A DNA stretch of 64,000 nt from Actinomycetes bacterium (lineage in GTDB: Bacteria > Actinomycetota > JAICYB01). Both the position numbers and the translations under genes were made by a program. The notes below the pieces were generated by a model. It was given only the letters and a program-made list of their open reading frames with translations, was not told the origin of the DNA and did not search any database. Below are positions 21,067 through 56,448 of this stretch, in pieces; positions within the stretch are counted from its first letter, which is position 1, and every line of letters starts with the position of its first letter. The stretch covers positions 1 to 64,000 of the forward strand of contig JAICYB010000014.1 in the NCBI GenBank assembly GCA_025934435.1, in the 5' to 3' direction.

Positions 21067-21747
21067 ATGCCTACCGATATCTCGAGGGCGGAGACCGTCG
21101 CCTTGATGGAAGCGGGCGCGCAGGTCGTGGACGTCCTCCCGCGCAAAGAGTTCGAGGAGGAGCATCTCCCGGGTGCGATCTCGATCCCGCTCCGGCATAT
21201 CGACGAACGCGCCCCCGAGCTGCTCGATCCGGCTCGCCCGGTCGTCGTCTATTGCTTCGACTTCGGCTGAGACATGAGCCCGCGGGCCGCGTGGCGGCTC
21301 GAAGCGCTCGGGTTCGGCCAGGTCTACGACTACGCCGGTGGACGCGAGGATTGGGCCGCCGCCGGCCTCGCAACCGAAGGGAGCGAGCCGGGCAAGCCCC
21401 GAGCCGGTTCGCTCGCCCGTCGCGACGTCGTCACGTGCCGGCCGGACGAATCTCTCGGCGAGGTGCGGGCACGCGTTGCCGAAAGCGGCATCCCCGCGGC
21501 AGTCGTCACGAACGACGAGGGCATCGTCCTCGGCCTCCTTCGCGAAGCGCAGCTCGAAGGCGCGGACGGCGCCCGAGTGGGTGCCGTGATGCGTCCGGGT
21601 CCGTCGACCTTCCGGCCGAACGTGCCGGCGGGCCAGATGGCGCGGTACATGACGGACCACGATCTGCCCTCAGCCCCGATCACGTCGTCGGACGGCCGCC
21701 TGATCGGCCTCCTCCTGCATACCGACGCCGTCGCCGCCGGCACGTGA
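21067..21747 (+). CDS. Candidate selenoprotein: rhodanese-CBS fusion with in-frame UGA
   Basis: 226 residues if the TGA at 21268-21270 is read as selenocysteine (Sec68). Before it: a rhodanese half (VVDVLPRKEFEEEHLPGAISIPL, then VVVYCFDFG with the usual active-site Cys63). After it the same frame continues at once as DMSPRAAWRLEALGF ... VYDYAGGREDW, the second half of a rhodanese domain. Two CBS motifs follow (about residues 110-220; DVVTCRPDESLGEV, GAVMRPGPSTFRPN). Homologues as I remember them carry Cys at the UGA position. A hairpin with a GUG loop lies 20 nt after the UGA. The window also holds a clear selenoprotein (FdhA), so the host evidently decodes UGA. Alternatives: a Cys-to-stop mutation or an assembly error. 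Confidence 0.72.
21268..21301 (+). promoter_or_regulatory. Candidate SECIS element of the rhodanese-CBS gene
   Basis: After the UGA (21268-21270) and 12 nt, CGGGCCGC (21283-21290) pairs with GCGGCUCG (21294-21301) to give an 8-bp stem with one G-U pair and the 3-nt loop GUG. The loop begins 20 nt after the UGA and starts with G-U, meeting the general bacterial SECIS rules (loop 16-37 nt downstream, G in its first two positions). Confidence 0.6.
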
Positions 21748-35700: not shown

Positions 35701-37257
35701 ATGACTGTCTCGGAGCGCGCAGAACTGCATAAGACGATCTGGCGGATCGCAAACGACCTCCGTGGGAGCGTAGACGGGTGGGACTTCAAAAGCTATGTGC
35801 TCGGGATGCTCTTTTATCGCTTCATCTCGGAGAACCTCACGGCCTACCTAAACGAACAGGAGCGCCGCGCCGGTAGTGCTGACTTCGACTACAGCCACCT
35901 GAGCGATGCTGATGCGGAGTCGGGCCGCGAGGAAACCGTCCGCGAGAAGGGGTTCTACATCCTCCCGACGGAGCTGTTCGCCAACGTGCGAGCTCGCGCG
36001 CGGAACGACGCCGATCTCAACGAGACGTTGGCGCGGATCTTCATCAACATCGAAGGTTCAGCGGTTGGTGCCGACAGCGAGGACGACTTCAAGGGTCTGT
36101 TCGATGATCTGGACGTCAACAGCAACAAGCTCGGTCCGACGGTTGCCAAACGAAATGAGAAGCTCGTCAAGCTCCTCGATGCCATCGGCGACCTGCCGCT
36201 CGGCAGCTTCGCCGACAACACCATTGACCTGTTCGGCGATGCCTACGAGTACCTGATGCAGATGTACGCATCGACGGCCGGCAAGTCCGGCGGCGAGTTC
36301 TACACGCCGCAGGAGGTTTCCGAGCTCCTGGCGCGGATCACGGTCGTGGGTAAGACCGAGGTGAACAAGGTCTACGACCCGGCCTGCGGTTCGGGCTCGC
36401 TTCTGCTGAAGTTCGCCAAGGTGCTGGGGCAAGACAATGTTCGGCAGGGGTTCTTCGGTCAGGAGACCAATCTGACGACCTACAACCTGTGCCGGATCAA
36501 CATGCTGTTGCATGACCTGAATTTCGAGAAGTTCGATATCGCACAAGGCGATACGCTGCTCGATCCGGCGCACTGGGAGGACGAACCGTTCGAGGCAATC
36601 GTGTCCAATCCGCCGTACTCGATCAGGTGGGACGGCGACGCCAACCCCCTGCTCATTAACGACCCCCGTTACGCGCCAGCCGGCGTGCTCGCGCCGAAAA
36701 GCAAGGCCGATCTGGCCTTCACGATGCACATGCTCAGTTGGCTAGCCGTGGACGGGACCGCGGCCATCGTCGAGTTCCCCGGCGTGCTTTACCGCGGTGG
36801 AGCAGAGCGCAAGATCCGCAAGTACCTCGTCGACAACAACTATGTCGACACCGTCATCCAACTCCCACCGGATCTGTTCTTCGGGACGACCATCGCGACG
36901 TGCATCATCGTGCTCAAGAAATCCAAGGCCGACAACGCCATCCTCTTCATCGATGCCTCGGCCGAGTTCGTCCGCCAAGGAAACAAGAACCGCCTTAGTG
37001 AGGTGAACCAGAACACGATCCTCGACGTCTTCAGCACACGTGCTGACGTCGACCACGTCGCGAAACTTATCGCCTCCGATGTCATCGCTGAGAACGACTA
37101 CAACATCGCCGTGACCTCATACGTGGAGGCCGAGGACACGCGAGAAGTCGTCGACATCAAGGAGTTGAACTCCGAGATCGCCCGCATCGTCGCCCGCCAG
37201 TCGGAGCTCCGGACAGAGATTGACGCCATCGTCGCCGACTTGGAGGAACCGTCGTGA
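35701..37257 (+). CDS. hsdM: Type I restriction-modification DNA methyltransferase HsdM
   Basis: 518 residues. The N-terminal HsdM helical domain (KTIWRIANDLRGSVDGWDFK, then YVLGMLFYRFISE) precedes an N6-adenine methyltransferase with motif I YDPACGSGSLLLKF (about 225-238) and motif IV SNPPYSIRW (about 302). Between them YEYLMQMYASTAGKSGGEFY is the usual linker. It methylates the host's recognition sites as part of an M2S complex. GTGA overlap with hsdS. Confidence 0.95.
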   Translation: MTVSERAELHKTIWRIANDLRGSVDGWDFKSYVLGMLFYRFISENLTAYLNEQERRAGSADFDYSHLSDADAESGREETVREKGFYILPTELFANVRARARNDADLNETLARIFINIEGSAVGADSEDDFKGLFDDLDVNSNKLGPTVAKRNEKLVKLLDAIGDLPLGSFADNTIDLFGDAYEYLMQMYASTAGKSGGEFYTPQEVSELLARITVVGKTEVNKVYDPACGSGSLLLKFAKVLGQDNVRQGFFGQETNLTTYNLCRINMLLHDLNFEKFDIAQGDTLLDPAHWEDEPFEAIVSNPPYSIRWDGDANPLLINDPRYAPAGVLAPKSKADLAFTMHMLSWLAVDGTAAIVEFPGVLYRGGAERKIRKYLVDNNYVDTVIQLPPDLFFGTTIATCIIVLKKSKADNAILFIDASAEFVRQGNKNRLSEVNQNTILDVFSTRADVDHVAKLIASDVIAENDYNIAVTSYVEAEDTREVVDIKELNSEIARIVARQSELRTEIDAIVADLEEPS

Positions 37258-38423
37258 ATCGCATCGACGACCTGATCGCCGAGGTCTGCCCGAACGGTGT
37301 GGAGTACAAGGCGATGGGAGATGTCGGTTCATTCACGCGCGGCCGACGCTTCACCAAGGACGACGTAGTAGCCGATGGGATCGGCAGTATGCACTACGGT
37401 GAGATTTACACGCGCTATGGAGTTTCGGCGAGGACTGCGCTGACTCACGTCCGGTCCGACCTGGCGCCGTCGCTCCGCTTTGCACGAACAGGCGATGTCA
37501 TCATCGCTGCGGTCGGCGAGACGGTAGAAGAGGTGTGCAAGGCCGTCGCCTGGCTGGGCCAGGATGAGATTGCGATCCACGACGACTGCTTCGCGTATAG
37601 GCACTCTATGAACCCGACGTTCGTCGCGTACTACATGCGGACGAAGGCCTTCAACGCTGAAAAGGCAAAGTACGTCGCGCGTGCCAAGATGAAGCGGATC
37701 TCCGCCGAGTCATTGGCGAAGCTATCGATTCCGGTGCCGCCGCCTGAGGTCCAGGCGCGGATCGTCGCGATCCTCACGAGGATGGAGGAGCTGGAGGCGG
37801 AGCTGGAGGCGGAGCTGCAGGCACGCCGCCACCAGTACGAGTACTACCGGGGAGCGCTTCTCGCGCCCACAAGAAGCGGAGCAGCAAATTGGACCACTCT
37901 CAACGATGCATTCGTGATGCGCGCCGGACAGCATGTCCGGGCCCGTGACATCGGCCACAAGCATGATCAAACGCACCCCTATCCGTGCTACGGGGGCAAC
38001 GGCATTCGTGGCTTCGTGCGATCGAATAGTCACGATGGCGCCCATTTGCTCATCGGACGCCAAGGGGCGCTCTGCGGGAACGTACGCAGGGCACGAGGCA
38101 AGTTCTACGCAACAGAACACGCCGTCGTGGTGACTCCAAGAGCAGACGTCGACGTCGACTGGGCGTTCCACGTGCTCACGTTTATGAACCTGAACCAGTA
38201 CGCGACGAAGTCGGCCCAGCCGGGGCTCGCTGTCGGCAGGCTCGGGAGAGTGCCGATTGCCATCCCGCCAATAAGTGAGCAGCGACGAATAGGATCTCTG
38301 CTCGACAAGTTCGATGCCCTCGTCAGCGACCTATCTGTCGGGCTTCCGGCGGAGTTGTCGGCCAGGCGCCAGCAGTACGAGCACTACCGGGACCGGTTGC
38401 TGACGTTCGACGAAGCAGTCTGA
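37254..38423 (+). CDS. hsdS: Type I restriction specificity subunit HsdS
   Basis: 389 residues with two target-recognition domains (about 15-150 and 205-335). Each is followed by a conserved helical spacer: IPVPPPEVQARIVAILTRME then QARRHQYEYYRGALL, and IPPISEQRRIGSLLDKF then SARRQQYEHYRDRLL. These set a bipartite DNA target. The first spacer contains a short Glu-Ala-Glu-Leu repeat (LEAELEAELQA), the kind that can change length and alter spacing. The start is GTG 37254, the end overlaps hsdR as TGATG. Confidence 0.93.
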   Translation: MNRIDDLIAEVCPNGVEYKAMGDVGSFTRGRRFTKDDVVADGIGSMHYGEIYTRYGVSARTALTHVRSDLAPSLRFARTGDVIIAAVGETVEEVCKAVAWLGQDEIAIHDDCFAYRHSMNPTFVAYYMRTKAFNAEKAKYVARAKMKRISAESLAKLSIPVPPPEVQARIVAILTRMEELEAELEAELQARRHQYEYYRGALLAPTRSGAANWTTLNDAFVMRAGQHVRARDIGHKHDQTHPYPCYGGNGIRGFVRSNSHDGAHLLIGRQGALCGNVRRARGKFYATEHAVVVTPRADVDVDWAFHVLTFMNLNQYATKSAQPGLAVGRLGRVPIAIPPISEQRRIGSLLDKFDALVSDLSVGLPAELSARRQQYEHYRDRLLTFDEAV

Positions 38424-41400
38424 TGACGCAGTCCCCGGACGCACCGCCACGGTACGAGCCCATCGCGGTCGGCGATGAGAGCACCGTTGTGGCGGAGTTT
38501 GTTACGGATGCTGTGCGGCAGACCGCCTATCAGAGCGAGGCAGAGCTCGAAGCCGAGCTCGTTGCTCTACTGCAGAGCCAGGCCTACGAGTATCTGCCTG
38601 TCACGAGTGAAGCCGCGCTGATCTCCAATCTGCGCTCGCGGCTCGCGCACTTGAACAAGATCGCGTTCTCAGATGCGGAGTGGGAGCGCTTCTTCAACGG
38701 GAGGATCGCCGGCGCCAATGAAGGGATTGTCGAGAAGACGGCACGCATCCAAGAGGACCATGTCCAGCTGCTCCAGCGCGACGACGGAAGCGTCAAGAAC
38801 GTCTATCTGATCGACAAGCAGAACATCCACAACAACAGCCTCCAGGTCATCAACCAGTACGAGGCGGCGGGCTCCCGGTCCAACCGATACGACGTCACCG
38901 TGCTCGTCAACGGGTTGCCCATGGTTCACATCGAGTTGAAGCGACGCGGTGTCGACATCCGTGAGGCGTTCAACCAGATTACCCGTTACCAGCGCGACGG
39001 ATTCTGGGCGGGGTCGGGCCTCTTCGAGTACGTCCAACTGTTCGTGATCAGCAACGGGACGCTCACGAAGTACTACTCGAACACCACACGCGAATCACAT
39101 CTGACCGAAGCCGCTCGGGGCCAGCGGTCAAGGCGGAAGACGTCGAACAGCTTCGAGTTCACGAGCTGGTGGGCGGACGCGCGCAACAAACCGATCACAG
39201 ATCTCACGTCGTTCACGCGGACCTTCTTCGCCAAACACACCTTGCTCAACATCCTCACGAGGTACTGCGTGTTCGACGTGGACCGCAAGCTCCTCGTCAT
39301 GCGTCCGTACCAGATCGTCGCAACTGAGAGGATCCTGCAACGCATCAACGTTGCGACGAACTACAAGAAGCTCGGCACAAACGAGTCCGGTGGGTACGTA
39401 TGGCACACGACCGGATCCGGCAAGACACTCACGAGCTTCAAGGCTGCACAGCTCGCCAGTCGCCTCCCGAGTGTGAACAAGGTCATCTTCGTCGTCGACC
39501 GACAAGATCTCGATTACCAAACGATGCGGGAATACGAGCGCTTCGAGAAGGGGGCCGCCAACTCGAACGCATCGACGAAAGTCCTGAAGCAGCAGCTTGA
39601 GGACCCTGGAGCACAGATCATCATCACGACCATCCAGAAGCTCTCGACATTCATAAGAGGCAACCCAGCGCACCCGGTCTACGGGAGCCACGTCGTGCTC
39701 ATCTTCGACGAGTGCCATCGCAGTCAGTTCGGCGACATGCACCAAGCAGTCACGAAGGCGTTCAAGCGATACCACCTGTTCGGCTTCACCGGAACGCCGA
39801 TCTTTGCCGTAAATGCCCGTTCGGGAGGGAAGGCCCATCTGCGGACGACCGAGCAGGCCTTCGGCGAGAAGCTCCACGCTTACACCATCGTGGATGCGAT
39901 CAGTGACAAGAACGTCTTGCCGTTCCGGATCGACTACATCAACACAATCAAGGCGGCTGAGGACGTTACCGACAAGCAGGTCTCAGCGATCGACGTCGAG
40001 AAGGCACTACTTGCACCGGCACGCATCGCGATGGTCGTCGACTACGTATTGGAGCACTTCGACCAGAAGACCAAGCGGAGCTCCACCTACCGCCTCGGGG
40101 AGAAGCGTTTGTCCGGCTTCAACTCGATCCTCGCAACGGCGTCGATCGAGGCCGCGAAGCGCTACTACGCAGCGTTCGCCCGCCGGCAAGAGGAGCGTGC
40201 GGCGAGCGACCCGACATACAAGCGGCTGAGGATCGCGCTGATCTACAGCTACTCGCCGAATGAGGACGAGAACGACGATCTTCTACCCGAGGAGGACTTC
40301 GAGACGGACGGTCTCGATGCGACCTCCCGCGACTTCCTCGAGGCGTCGGTACGGGACTACAACGATGTGTTCGGTACGTCGTTCGATACGTCCGCAGAGA
40401 AGTTCCAGAACTACTACAAGGACCTGTCGCTCCGCCTGAAGAGCCGCGAGGTTGACCTCGCCATCGTCGTCAACATGTTCCTCACCGGCTTCGACGCCAC
40501 CACGCTGAACACCCTGTGGGTCGACAAGAATCTCCGGCAACACGGGCTCATGCAGGCCTACTCGCGGACGAACCGGATCCTCAACTCGGTCAAGACATAC
40601 GGGAACGTCGTGTGCTTCCGTGACCTCGAGCAAGCGACGAACGATGCGATTGCGCTGTTCGGCAACCAAGAGGCGGGTGGCATCGTCGTCCTCAAGCCGT
40701 ACACCGACTACTACGCGGAATACGAGCAGGTCGTTGCCGCGTTCGTGGCAGAGTTCCCGGTTGACGCGCTAATCGTCGGCGAAGAAGCGCACAAGCGATT
40801 CGTCACCATGTTTGGCAAGATCCTCCGCCTTCGAAACATCCTGACCGCGTTCGACGAGTTCGCAGGTAACGAGCTGCTCAGCGCGCGCGACCATCAGGAC
40901 TATCAGAGCATCTATCTCAATATCTACGCGGAGTTCACGAGGCTTGCGGCGGCTGAGAAGGAGTCGATCCTCGACGACATCGTCTTTGAGATCGAGCTGG
41001 TCAAGCAGGTCGAAGTGGACGTCGACTACATCCTCATGCTTGTCGCGAAGTGGCGGGAAGAACGCGGAAGCGGTTCGGACCGCGAAGTGGCCATCTACGA
41101 GGAAATAGAGCGTGCGATCGACTCAAGCCTCAGCCTGCGGAGCAAGAAGGATCTCATCCTCAAGTTTGTCGACTCCGTGTCGGTCACGCCGGACACTGCC
41201 GGCGACTGGCGGCGATACATCGAGGCCAGACGCGACGCGGAGCTCGACGCCATCATCGCCGAGGAGCAGCTCGACCCAGAGAAGACCAAAGCGTTTATCG
41301 AGGACGCGTTCCGAGACGGTGTTGTCACAGCATCGGGTACCGCTATCACGAAGGTCATGCCACCGGTGTCGCGCTTCGGCGTCGACAGCAATCATGCGGG

Positions 41401-41461
41401 TCGGAAGCGGGCCGTCCTGGACAGGCTCACGGCCTTCGTGGAGCGCTTCCTCGGTCTGTAG
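38423..41461 (+). CDS. hsdR: Type I restriction endonuclease/translocase HsdR
   Basis: 1012 residues, full length. The N-terminal PD-(D/E)xK nuclease (RYDVTVLVNGLPMVHIELK, about 155-175) is followed by SF2 motor motifs: HTTGSGKTLTS (about 329), IFDECHRSQFG (about 428), FGFTGTPIF, and VNMFLTGFDATTLNTLWVDK. The C-terminal helical region binds the methylase. All three hsd genes are intact and overlap, so the system looks functional. Confidence 0.95.
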   Translation: MTQSPDAPPRYEPIAVGDESTVVAEFVTDAVRQTAYQSEAELEAELVALLQSQAYEYLPVTSEAALISNLRSRLAHLNKIAFSDAEWERFFNGRIAGANEGIVEKTARIQEDHVQLLQRDDGSVKNVYLIDKQNIHNNSLQVINQYEAAGSRSNRYDVTVLVNGLPMVHIELKRRGVDIREAFNQITRYQRDGFWAGSGLFEYVQLFVISNGTLTKYYSNTTRESHLTEAARGQRSRRKTSNSFEFTSWWADARNKPITDLTSFTRTFFAKHTLLNILTRYCVFDVDRKLLVMRPYQIVATERILQRINVATNYKKLGTNESGGYVWHTTGSGKTLTSFKAAQLASRLPSVNKVIFVVDRQDLDYQTMREYERFEKGAANSNASTKVLKQQLEDPGAQIIITTIQKLSTFIRGNPAHPVYGSHVVLIFDECHRSQFGDMHQAVTKAFKRYHLFGFTGTPIFAVNARSGGKAHLRTTEQAFGEKLHAYTIVDAISDKNVLPFRIDYINTIKAAEDVTDKQVSAIDVEKALLAPARIAMVVDYVLEHFDQKTKRSSTYRLGEKRLSGFNSILATASIEAAKRYYAAFARRQEERAASDPTYKRLRIALIYSYSPNEDENDDLLPEEDFETDGLDATSRDFLEASVRDYNDVFGTSFDTSAEKFQNYYKDLSLRLKSREVDLAIVVNMFLTGFDATTLNTLWVDKNLRQHGLMQAYSRTNRILNSVKTYGNVVCFRDLEQATNDAIALFGNQEAGGIVVLKPYTDYYAEYEQVVAAFVAEFPVDALIVGEEAHKRFVTMFGKILRLRNILTAFDEFAGNELLSARDHQDYQSIYLNIYAEFTRLAAAEKESILDDIVFEIELVKQVEVDVDYILMLVAKWREERGSGSDREVAIYEEIERAIDSSLSLRSKKDLILKFVDSVSVTPDTAGDWRRYIEARRDAELDAIIAEEQLDPEKTKAFIEDAFRDGVVTASGTAITKVMPPVSRFGVDSNHAGRKRAVLDRLTAFVERFLGL

Positions 41462-48806: not shown

Positions 48807-49892
48807 ATGGCACACGTACAGCGACGGAAGCGTGCCGGACGGCGCGACGACTGGCTCGCGAGCTACGTCGGGACGGACAACAAGCGGCACTCAAAGGTGT
48901 TCCAGAAGAAGATCGACGCCGAGCGTTTCGTCGTCGAGATGGAGTCGCGGAAGCTGCGCGGCATCTGGACGAACCCTGAGCACGGCAAGGAACTGTTCGG
49001 GAAGTGGCTCGACGAGTGGTGGGAAACCACCACCAACCTCCGCCCAAGCTCACGCGCTCGCGACGAGTCATACATGGAGAAGCACGTCCGCCCGCGGTTC
49101 GGCGACGTTCCGCTCGCGAAGATCTCGCAAGTGGACGTCCGTGCATGGGTCGCGGGCCTAAGCAAGAAGAGAAGGCCGGCGACGGTCCATCTGATCTATC
49201 AGATCCTCGCTCGCGCGCTGGACGCAGCCGTGGACGGTGGAATGATTCCGCTCTCGCCGTGCCGCAACATCTCCCTGCCGAAGATCGAGCAAGGCGAACC
49301 GCGTTTTCTGACGCCGGAGCAGGTGAATCTGATCGTGCGTTCGGCGCATCACTACTACGGAACGCTGATTCTCACCGCCGCGTACCTCGGCCCCCGGTGG
49401 GGTGAACTGGCAGGACTGCGGCCGAAGAACGTCGACATCCTCCACCGGAAGCTGCACATCGTCGAGCAGGCAACGGAGCTGAGGGGCATGGTGACTCTCG
49501 GATCGCCGCTGAAGACGCCTGCGTCGCGCCGGATCATCACGATCCCGAAGTTCCTCGTGCCGCTCCTCGAGGAGCAGATCGGGCGGAACAACGAGCTCGT
49601 CTTTCCATCACGCGATGGATTGCCGATGCGACGGACGAACTTCCGGCGCCGGACGTGGGCAGCGGCTCTCGAGAAGGCCGAGCTCGATGCGACCATCCGG
49701 TTCCACGACCTGCGTCACACGTCCGTGGCGTTCGCGATCGCGCGGGGCGCACACCCGAAGGCAATCCAAGAACGGATGGGTCACAGCTCGATCAACACCA
49801 CCCTGAATGTCTACGGCGGCCTCTTCCCACGCTTGGAGGAAGCGATCGCCGAGGGCCTAGACGACCTCTATGCTTCGTCACAGCCGGGATGA
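48807..49892 (+). CDS. Tyrosine recombinase (integrase)
   Basis: 361 residues. N-terminal arm-binding part (HVQRRKRAGRRDDWLASYVG), SAM-like core-binding domain (about 60-150), catalytic domain with the R-K-HxxR-H-Y set: GPRWGELAGLRP (Arg), HDLRHTSVAFA (His-Arg), MGHSSINTTLNVYGGL (His, nucleophile Tyr). Intact. It is the natural enzyme for the tRNA-Ala attachment sites, 3.2 kb from the right one. Its stop overlaps the next ATG. Confidence 0.93.
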   Translation: MAHVQRRKRAGRRDDWLASYVGTDNKRHSKVFQKKIDAERFVVEMESRKLRGIWTNPEHGKELFGKWLDEWWETTTNLRPSSRARDESYMEKHVRPRFGDVPLAKISQVDVRAWVAGLSKKRRPATVHLIYQILARALDAAVDGGMIPLSPCRNISLPKIEQGEPRFLTPEQVNLIVRSAHHYYGTLILTAAYLGPRWGELAGLRPKNVDILHRKLHIVEQATELRGMVTLGSPLKTPASRRIITIPKFLVPLLEEQIGRNNELVFPSRDGLPMRRTNFRRRTWAAALEKAELDATIRFHDLRHTSVAFAIARGAHPKAIQERMGHSSINTTLNVYGGLFPRLEEAIAEGLDDLYASSQPG

Positions 49893-52974: not shown

Positions 52975-53102
52975 CAGAGCAACCCCAGAGCAACCCCGCG
53001 GCATCGGCCCCCAAGAACGAAAGAAGCCACACGCCGTGTGACGTGCAGCTTCTGACGTGGAGGCGAGCGGATTCGAACCGCCGACCTCTGCGTTGCGAAC
53101 GC
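52975..53102 (-). repeat. Right attachment repeat
   Basis: Counterpart of 34237-34379. The left part (AGAGCAACCCC twice, then the GAAGC/GCTTC hairpin) belongs to the element end; the right part is the 3' half of the intact tRNA-Ala. Identity ends at the tRNA anticodon loop. Confidence 0.75.
53022..53053 (-). terminator. Intrinsic terminator after tRNA-Ala
   Basis: On the minus strand AGAAGC-tgcacgt-CACAC-ggc-GTGTG-GCTTCT forms a hairpin with a 7-nt bulge, followed by TTCGTTCTT. It begins 5 nt after the tRNA 3' end and is duplicated in the left repeat. Confidence 0.65.
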
Positions 53103-53130
53103 AGCGCTCTACCAACTGAGCTACGCCCCC
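53058..53130 (-). tRNA. tRNA-Ala (anticodon CGC)
   Basis: 73-nt cloverleaf on the minus strand: acceptor GGGGGCG/CGCCTCC with A73, D-arm GCTC/GAGC, anticodon stem CTGCG/CGCAG around TTCGCAA (anticodon CGC), T-loop TTCGAAT. CCA not encoded. It is the integration target of the island and is left complete by it. A TGCTAGATT extended -10 (53144-53152) lies upstream. Confidence 0.95.
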
Positions 53131-53211
53131 GGTAAGACGCACCAATCTAGCAGCGGTAGCGGCCCTCAGCCCGTTTAGGGCAAGCTCAACACGGCTACCA
53201 AAGGAGGCGTC

Positions 53212-56200
53212 GTGCGTCGCGTCCTACCGGCTTGGCCCGTCCTCGAACAGCTGCGTCGCCGCGACCTCAAAGCCCTTGGTCGGACAGCGTTCTCCGAGCG
53301 AACCGAACAGCTCGGCCCCCGTACGGCGAAGGCGGACGAGGTCGTCCGATCGGTCTGCCCGTACTGCTCCGTCGGATGCGGGCAGCTCGTCTATCTCAAG
53401 GATGGACGGATCACCGACATCGAAGGCGATCCGGACTCCCCCATCTCCGGCGGGTGCCTCTGCCCGAAGGGCGCCGCCACCTTCCAGCTCGTCACGGGTT
53501 CGCACCGGACGAAGCAGGTGCTCTACCGGAAGCCCTACGGAACGAAGTGGGAGACGCTGCCGCTGGCGACCGCGATGGAGATGGTCGCGCAACGCGTGAA
53601 GCAAACGCGCGACGAGACGTGGGAAGAAACGGATCCGAAGGGCAACGTCGTCAACCGCACCCTCGGCATCGCGCACCTCGGGGGCGCGACGCTCGACAAC
53701 GAAGAGAACTACCTCATCAAGAAGCTGTTCACGGCGCTCGGGGTCGTCCAAGTGGAGAACCAAGCACGTATATGACACAGCTCCACGGTCCCCGGTCTGG
53801 GGATCTCGTTCGGAAGGGGCGGAGCGACGACGTTCCAGCAGGACCTTCGGAACGCTGATTGCATCGTCATCGAGGGATCGAACATGGCGGAGTGCCATCC
53901 GGTCGGCTTCCGCTTCGTGATGGAAGCGAAGCGCCGCGGCGCGACGATCATCCATGTCGACCCGCGATTCACACGCACGAGTGCGGTCGCCGACATCCAC
54001 GTACCGATCCGTCCCGGAACCGACATCGCGTTCCTCGGTGGACTCGTCAACTACATCATCACGAACGAGCGGTACTTCACCGAGTACGTCAAGGCGTACA
54101 CGAACGCAACGGCGCTCGTGAACGAGAACTTCAAGGACACCGAAGATCTCGACGGCTTGTTCAGCGGCTGGAACAGCGAGAAGGGACAGTACGAGATCTC
54201 GTCGTGGCAGTACGACGGTGCCGAGGTCGGCCCCGCCGCCGGCAAGCGCGAGATGTTCAGCGGCGAACCGATGTCCGAACGCGGAACGCAGTCCGGCGCC
54301 ATACATCACGACGAGACGATGCAGGACCCGCGCTGCGTCTTCCAGATCGTGAAGCGTCACTATTCCCGTTACACACCGGAGATGGTCGAGGACATCTGCG
54401 GCATCCCGCAGGACAAGTTCCTCCAGGTCGCGGAAGCGCTCTGCAGCAACTCCAGCCGCGAACGCACGAGCGCGTTCTGCTACGCCGTCGGCTGGACGCA
54501 GCACTCGATCGGTGTCCAGTACATCCGCACGGCGTGCATCGTCCAACTGCTGCTCGGGAACATCGGACGACCCGGCGGCGGGATCATGGCCCTGCGCGGT
54601 CACGCGTCGATCCAGGGCTCGACGGACATCCCGACGCTCTACAACCTCCTCCCGGGATACCTGCCGATGCCCCACGCGAAATACGACACCGACCTTCCGA
54701 CGTATCTGGAAGCGAACGGGTCGACGTCCGGCTGGTGGTCCGAGATGCCGAAGTACATGGTGTCGCTCCTCAAGGCGTACTGGGGGGACGACGCGACGGA
54801 GCACAACGAGTACGGCTACCACTACCTGCCGCGACTCTCCGGCGACCACTCGCACCAAGTGACGGTTGCCGCGATGGCCGACGGCGTCGTCAAGGGCTAC
54901 TTCGTCATGGGCGAGAACCCAGCCGTCGGCTCGATGCACGGACAGCTGCAGCGCAAGGGCCTCCGCGAGCTCGATTGGCTCGTCGTGCGCGACTTCGCAC
55001 CGACGGAGACCGCGGAGTTCTGGAAGACGGCGCCGGAGATCGAACGCGGTGAGGTTCGTCCCGAAGACATCGGCACCGAGGTGTTCTTCTTCCCCGCCGC
55101 GACACACACGGAGAAGGACGGATCGTTCACGAACACGCAGCGCCTCCTGCAGTGGCACCACAAGGCGATCGAACCGCCGGGCGATTGCCGGAGCGAGCTC
55201 GGGTTCACCTATCACCTCGGACGCCGCCTCCGCGAGCTCTACGCGGATTCAGCCGAGCAACGCGATCTCGGCATCCAGCGCCTGACGTGGGACTACCCGA
55301 CGAAAGGTCCGCACGAAGAACCGGACGCCGAAGCCGTCCTGAAGGAGATCAACGGCTACACCGTGCAGGACGGCAAGGCGATGTCCGGGTTCAAGGATCT
55401 GAAGGACGACGGGTCGACGGCATGCGGCTGCTGGATCTACTCCGGCGCCTACGCCGACGACGCGAACCAAACCGCGCGACGGAAACCCGCAGACGAACAG
55501 ACGTGGGTCGCACCGGATTGGGGATGGGCGTGGCCGTCGAACCGGCGCCTGATGTACAACCGCGCGTCCGCGGATCCCGACGGCAACCCGTGGTCGGAAC
55601 GCAAACGCTACGTCTGGTGGGACGCGCAGAAGAAGAAGTGGACCGGTGAAGACGTCCCCGATTTCATCGAGACCCGGCCCCCGGACTACCGGCCCGCCGA
55701 AGACGCGACGGGAACGGACACGATCGGCGGCGCCGACCCGTTCATCATGCAAGCCGACGGTCTCGGCTGGCTGTACGCACCGAACGGTCTGCAGGACGGA
55801 CCGCTGCCGACGCACTACGAGCCCGAGGAGTCGGTCGCGGAGAACGCGCTGTATCTCCAGCAGTGCAATCCGGCGCGCATGGAATGGGACCGCAAGGACA
55901 ACCCGTTCCACCGCGCCTTCGACGATCCGCGCTTCCCGTACGCCATCACGACTTACCGGCTGACCGAGCACCACACGGCCGGCGGCATGACGCGGTGGCT
56001 CTCGTGGCTGTCGGAGTTGCAACCGGAGATGTTCTGCGAGATCTCACCCGAGCTCGCGCGCGAGAAAGGCTTGCGCAACGGCGACTGGGCGACGATCTCG
56101 ACGGCGCGGACGGTGATCGAGTGCCGCGTCCTCGTGACGGAGCGGATACGACCGATGCGTATCCGCAAGCGCATCGTCCACACGATCGGACTCCCCTATC

Positions 56201-56448
56201 ACTGGGGAACCAAGGGGCTCGTCACCGGCGACTCGACGAACGACCTCATCGGTTTCGTCGCCGACCCGAACTCGTCCATCCAAGAATCGAAAGCGTTCAC
56301 GGGGAACATCGAACGCGGACGCCGCGGTCGGGGCCGCGGGATGCTCGAACCGATCGACGACAAACTCCGCGATCTTCCCGAAGTGCACAAGCCGCGCGGC
56401 AAGCACGGCGTGCGTGCGGCGACGTCCCAAGAGGACGAGGAAACCTGA
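53212..56448 (+). CDS. fdhA: Formate dehydrogenase catalytic subunit, selenocysteine-containing
   Basis: 1078 residues when TGA 53773-53775 is read as Sec188. GTG 53212 has AAGGAGG four bases upstream. The N-terminal 4Fe-4S motif is CPYCSVGC (Cys49, 52, 56) plus CPKG (Cys84). ENQARI-Sec-HSSTVPGL is the conserved active site where Sec ligates Mo or W; FGRGGATTF follows. The later bis-MGD-binding domains include HPVGFRFV, GWTQHSIGVQYIRT, NIGRPGGGIMALRGHASIQG and a C-terminal molydopterin dinucleotide-binding domain (PYHWGTKGLVTGDSTND). No Tat signal, so probably cytoplasmic. With fdhB and nrfD it oxidises formate and passes electrons to the membrane. Confidence 0.95.
53773..53805 (+). promoter_or_regulatory. 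SECIS element of fdhA
   Basis: UGA at 53773-53775; GGUCCCC (53787-53793) pairs with GGGGAUC (53799-53805) around the loop GGUCU. The loop contains the same GGUCU as the E. coli fdhF SECIS and starts 18 nt after the UGA. Confidence 0.85.

Follow-up and report, generated by a model that had tools for sequence, protein, structure and literature searches.

A predicted selenocysteine-containing rhodanese-CBS family in Actinomycetota with a C-x4-U active loop

We analysed a 64,000-nucleotide stretch of DNA from an Actinomycetes bacterium (contig JAICYB010000014.1, positions 1 to 64,000; hereafter the window), in which a gene at 21067-21747 on the plus strand very probably encodes a selenoprotein joining a rhodanese domain to a pair of CBS domains. 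The gene forms a single frame from the ATG at 21067 to the final TGA at 21745-21747, and its sole internal stop is a TGA at 21268-21270, codon 68. Reading this codon as selenocysteine (Sec, U) gives a product of 226 residues. The Pfam model Rhodanese (PF00581) covers residues 9-99 (21091-21363) with an E-value of 1.6e-15 and 57.8 bits against a cut-off of 22.2, and the TGA lies inside the match. The Pfam model CBS (PF00571) matches two stretches (E-value of 9.1e-15, 55.2 bits against a cut-off of 24). The first CBS domain comprises residues 114-160 (21406-21546), and the second approximately residues 162-222 (21550-21732, limits approximate), as placed by the second Pfam stretch, alignments with PDB entries, and CBS-pair matches from Foldseek. 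The top Foldseek matches are CBS pairs, the top 50 hold CBS proteins only, and AcuB, MgtE, and IMPDH are among the matches. The CBS pair was also found in all nine family members scanned with Pfam. An AlphaFold model built on two sequences (mean predicted local distance difference test score, pLDDT, of 71.8; predicted template modelling score, pTM, of 0.48) is too weak for the geometry or the distance between Cys63 and Sec68. An earlier note on this DNA had described one frame broken only by this TGA, with two halves that join into one rhodanese domain fused to CBS domains, a Sec at the second position of the active loop, and a hairpin with a GUG loop 20 nt past the UGA; each of these features was recovered in the present analysis.

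Cys63 (codon 21253-21255), the presumed catalytic residue, precedes the predicted Sec68 by five residues, resulting in a C-x4-U loop. To see how this site is conserved, 61 related genomes were searched, and a profile was then run against 397 genomes from the phylum Actinomycetota. Near-full-length homologues from the 61 related genomes each contain exactly one TGA, and the first nine are 43-61% identical to the window protein. The profile search recovered 48 TGA-bearing genes in 40 genomes, the window gene included, a few of which are cut by contig ends. One more came from a named metagenome-assembled genome (MAG) of Solirubrobacteraceae, also Actinomycetota, bringing the total to 49 genes in 41 genomes; it was found by a contig scan with one-sequence patterns, in which this single true relative is little guide to the spread of the family beyond the phylum. 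All 49 genes have TGA at the same alignment column, and none has TAA, TAG, or a sense codon there. The family motif around the site is Y-C-x-D-x-x-U-[DG]-[MLI]-S-[PA]-R-A-A-[WC]-[RQ]-L, in which C63, D65, and U68 are invariant. Cys63 aligns with the Cys of YCWGPAC in the PDB entry 3nhv. At the column of Sec68, 11 single-domain rhodaneses (among L104-L115) carry Cys, encoded by TGC, and the crystal structures 3nhv/3o3w also have Cys at the matching position. The predicted Sec68 thus occupies the position of a Cys in sister rhodaneses. Full conservation of C63, D65, and U68 and the presence of Cys68 in the sister proteins suggest an active loop with two centres. The median ratio of nonsynonymous to synonymous substitution rates (dN/dS) is 0.36 upstream and 0.31 downstream of the UGA, indicating similar purifying selection on both sides, with dS near saturation.

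The candidate selenocysteine insertion sequence (SECIS) of the window gene, CGGGCCGC-GUG-GCGGCUCG, is a hairpin of 8 base pairs at 21283-21301 with its GUG loop at 21291-21293, separated from the UGA by 20 nt. Its minimum free energy (MFE) is -13.1 kcal/mol (z = -3.6), and none of 200 shuffled sequences was as stable. The surrounding 51 nt are unexceptional in stability (z = -0.67), and the SECIS argument therefore rests on conservation rather than on energy. A hairpin with the consensus CG[AG]GC[CU]GC-GUG-GC[GA]GCUCG and a stem of 7-8 base pairs is present in all 49 genes, starting 12 nt past the UGA and with the loop at 20 nt. A Cys76 codon removes the closing pair in nine genes, widening the loop to 5 nt; two genes lack the outermost pair. 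Synonymous identity reaches 0.75 at codon 74 and 1.00 at codons 75, 77, and 78, compared with an expectation of 0.29-0.37 based on the remainder of the gene. Within the stem, Ala75 is always GCG and Leu78 always CTC (49/49 each). Replacement of Arg77 (CGG) by Gln (CAG) is matched in seven of seven cases by a synonymous change of the third base of Ala74 from C to U, so that the C-G pair becomes U-A and pairing is kept. Among the stem cells, 97.1% are paired, and sliding the partner lowers this figure to 23-60%. The hairpin is absent from the 11 single-domain loci with Cys. A pattern of TGA, 13 nucleotides, and the hairpin has a single occurrence in each of the seven genomes tested, always at the rhodanese-CBS gene, and a reversed control pattern gave no matches. 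These observations indicate that the segment 12-31 nt past the UGA is under selection as RNA. It also agrees with the bacterial SECIS (bSECIS) model, which calls for a loop of 3-9 nt, a stem of 4-16 base pairs, a G in the first two loop positions, a distance of 16-37 nt from the UGA, and an MFE of -7.5 kcal/mol or below (PMC13188914); the window hairpin has 3 nt (GUG), 8 base pairs, 20 nt, and -13.1 kcal/mol, respectively. Rfam reported two tRNAs only, and no SECIS-type match, in the window.

If the TGA were a real stop, the gene would encode a short rhodanese fragment and a separate CBS protein restarting from the ATG at 21274, two codons later. An open reading frame of 157 residues at 21274-21747 is indeed in the mechanical list of open reading frames, and 30 of the 49 homologues have ATG at codon 70. 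However, codon 70 is Leu (17 genes) or Ile (2 genes) in the other 19, mostly CTC, which is not a start codon, and on this ground we rejected a stop followed by a restart. The stop is always TGA and never TAA or TAG, termination would cut a rhodanese domain that is under purifying selection on both sides, the sister proteins with Cys are continuous, and the RNA hairpin would be left unaccounted for. We regard such a split as very improbable. Even less probability attaches to a sequencing or assembly error, a pseudogene, or general read-through or reassignment of UGA. Most of the genomes are draft MAGs, and selA and selB are missing from the host assembly (see below), as might be expected under this explanation. 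Against it, an identical TGA recurs across the 41 genomes, purifying selection acts on both sides of it, the hairpin is specific to this UGA, and the rhodanese-CBS gene itself terminates at TGA. It is near certain from these comparisons that the UGA at 21268 is decoded and is no stop.

Can the host decode UGA as Sec? The host genome (G000), a MAG of 133 contigs that is 94% complete, contains tRNA-Sec on contig C89 (77.9 bits, cut-off of 47) and SelD (383 bits, cut-off of 125). The window itself holds a second selenoprotein gene, fdhA, on the plus strand at 53179-56448 (open frame limits), with a TGA at 53773-53775 in the context ARIUHSS, Pfam matches to Molybdopterin and Fe4S4, and a hairpin with a GGUCU loop. 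It encodes a classical Sec-containing formate dehydrogenase alpha subunit, as the earlier note had recognised, and is an independent sign of Sec decoding. Across the phylum, SelA is present in 34 of the 40 carrier genomes versus 198 of the 357 other genomes.

Several observations weigh against a Sec-dependent family. The covariation in the stem concerns one base pair in seven sequences of one clade and may be a single event. A diverged rhodanese-CBS paralogue (L034, G058:C20:13586-14239) has Ser at the Sec site, alongside a Sec copy in the same genome. Profile searches did not find selA or selB in the host assembly, and both genes are absent from the same six carrier assemblies, the host among them; of the sel genes for which the earlier note had looked to the genome, those for tRNA-Sec and SelD were thus found and selA and selB were not. 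In one 96% complete assembly (G338), SelA, SelB, and SelD were all not found, yet the TGA gene and its hairpin (L088) are present. Weak SelB matches in the host genome were dismissed as other translation GTPases, since those at the contig ends of C133 and C67 resemble the str operon and that on C6 resembles IF-2. Because selA and selB are on a shared contig in most relatives examined and the same six carriers lack both, one missing contig could be a fair, if unproven, explanation for the joint absence. In four of these six carriers (G256:C13, G178:C123, G200:C239, and G345:C127), the SelD gene itself has one in-frame TGA, probably encoding a Sec-SelD and thereby giving a further sign of Sec decoding. 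The remaining exceptions among the profile matches are fragments in G052 and G117 and a partial match with TGA in G317. Apart from the Ser paralogue, the residue at position 68, to which the earlier note had tied its proposal, is either U or Cys, and the hairpin fold that it had described is conserved with compensatory change. Judged from sequence comparison, we consider it highly probable that a Sec-dependent rhodanese-CBS family exists in Actinomycetota and that the window gene is a genuine member with its own SECIS.

In a 2026 review, 119 prokaryotic selenoprotein families or subfamilies are catalogued, among them five rhodanese forms with the motifs UxxS, UxxG (twice), CxU, and UxxxxU (PMC13188914). 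None of the five is C-x4-U or described as CBS-fused, and a full-text search of the open-licence literature found no paper joining selenoprotein, rhodanese, and CBS domain, in line with the earlier note, which knew of no such protein. TsoB (form 5, NF045694, rhodanese/DsbD fusion-like) shares the rhodanese domain and the spacing, and the second U of its UxxxxU presumably corresponds to U68 of the window protein. Unlike the window protein, which has Cys first and a CBS partner, TsoB has two Sec residues, the first position also being Sec, and a DsbD-like partner; at 22.5 bits, the window protein falls far short of the cut-off of 805 for its model and is not a member. Rhodanese_LYCAU (form 3, NF041203) likewise has a Cys before the Sec in the active loop of a rhodanese, but the Sec is two residues past the Cys instead of five, and it is without CBS domains; the window protein reaches 19.3 bits here, far below the cut-off of 115, and is not a member of this family either. 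Forms 1, 2, and 4 (UxxS and UxxG) also place Sec in a rhodanese domain, but no preceding Cys is named and no CBS pair is reported for them (PMC13188914), whereas the window protein keeps Cys63 with Sec at +5.

The closest likeness in spacing is found in single-domain rhodaneses. The C-x4-C proteins (L104-L115, and BH2092 in PDB 3nhv/3o3w with YCWGPACNG) have Cys exactly at the Sec position, five residues past the catalytic Cys, but neither Sec nor a CBS pair. Four others (L010, L011, L013, and L019) have the same C-x4-U loop with TGA at the site, but lack CBS domains and have other hairpins; a poorly resolved tree places them with the Cys forms. Their TGA codons lie near 1699, 1684, 1666, and 1690, respectively, on the coding strand, and their stems vary between genomes with compensation (GGTCGCC/GGCGGCC versus GGTCGTC/GACGACC). 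Two of them tested against NF041203 scored 61.8 and 46.4 bits (cut-off of 115). They are possibly another unlisted selenoprotein subfamily. We did not retain any direction for the change between Cys and Sec, as the tree of about 100 columns was unresolved and joined long branches.

How might the C-x4-U loop function? SelB bound to the hairpin would deliver Sec-tRNA-Sec to the UGA at 21268. Cys63, as the rhodanese nucleophile, would accept a sulfane sulfur or attack a substrate containing oxidised sulfur or selenium. The resulting persulfide or sulfenate of Cys63 could then be attacked by Sec68, which ends the same active loop. Sulfide or the reduced product would depart, and a selenenyl-sulfide would form between Cys63 and Sec68, to be reduced by thioredoxin or a small thiol. 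We give roughly even chances to the proposal, based on residue conservation, that the C63/U68 pair performs sulfur-handling redox chemistry. CBS pairs in solved relatives bind adenine nucleotides. By analogy, the CBS pair may bind an adenine nucleotide and adjust the activity to the energy state, a form of control that seems to us about as probable as its absence. The combined proposal is more tentative: in an obligate-Sec family, nucleotide binding by the CBS pair might gate a Cys63/Sec68 selenenyl-sulfide switch and make sulfane-sulfur or redox chemistry respond to the energy state of the cell, which would make the protein a selenoprotein sensor-enzyme of an undescribed kind.

Alternatively, the selenoprotein could serve selenium supply, with the loop passing perselenide to SelD or another user and Sec68 taking part in selenium handling or sensing. 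A rhodanese domain acting on selenium is known from MnmH/SelU, which is named among the weak NCBIfam matches, and the family is commoner in genomes bearing SelA. However, no conserved linkage to sel genes was seen in 20 loci, the 198 genomes noted above have SelA without the family, and the site is Cys in the sister proteins and hence not selenium-specific. We consider this role unlikely, although less so than the other alternatives weighed here.

The gene neighbourhood offers little guidance. The start codons of the selenoprotein gene and of a response regulator are about 45 bp apart in divergent orientation, and a hybrid kinase follows. In view of such neighbours, the earlier note considered a redox-signalling role possible, and the protein could then be a partner of this two-component system. 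Apart from sporadic cases, an improvised, crude gene caller found no neighbour family common to the 20 loci, which were taken with flanking sequence of up to 20 kb. Because the neighbours are not conserved, the response regulator and the kinase give no reliable functional hint; we discarded a conserved operon or two-component link, and such a partnership appears improbable. Elsewhere in the window, fdhA is followed by ferredoxin-like genes and, as judged by reading the translations, molybdenum-cofactor genes. The translations also suggest type I restriction-modification genes together with a phage-type integrase close to a tRNA-Ala (35701-41461, 48807-49892, and 53057-53130), possibly an integrated island.

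The family would add a selenoprotein subfamily to those known, with a new Sec position (C-x4-U with the catalytic Cys kept), a new partner (the CBS pair), and a distribution over many families of Actinomycetota. Since gene callers would split such a gene into broken pieces, its database annotation is probably faulty. No CBS-fused form with Cys at position 68 was found among the profile matches in the 397 genomes, an apparent lack that is unusual because Cys homologues are plentiful for almost every selenoprotein (PMC13188914), and that allows the advantage of Sec in a rhodanese to be addressed directly. With its strongly constrained sequence, the SECIS would also be well suited to testing how SelB recognises its target in Actinomycetota.
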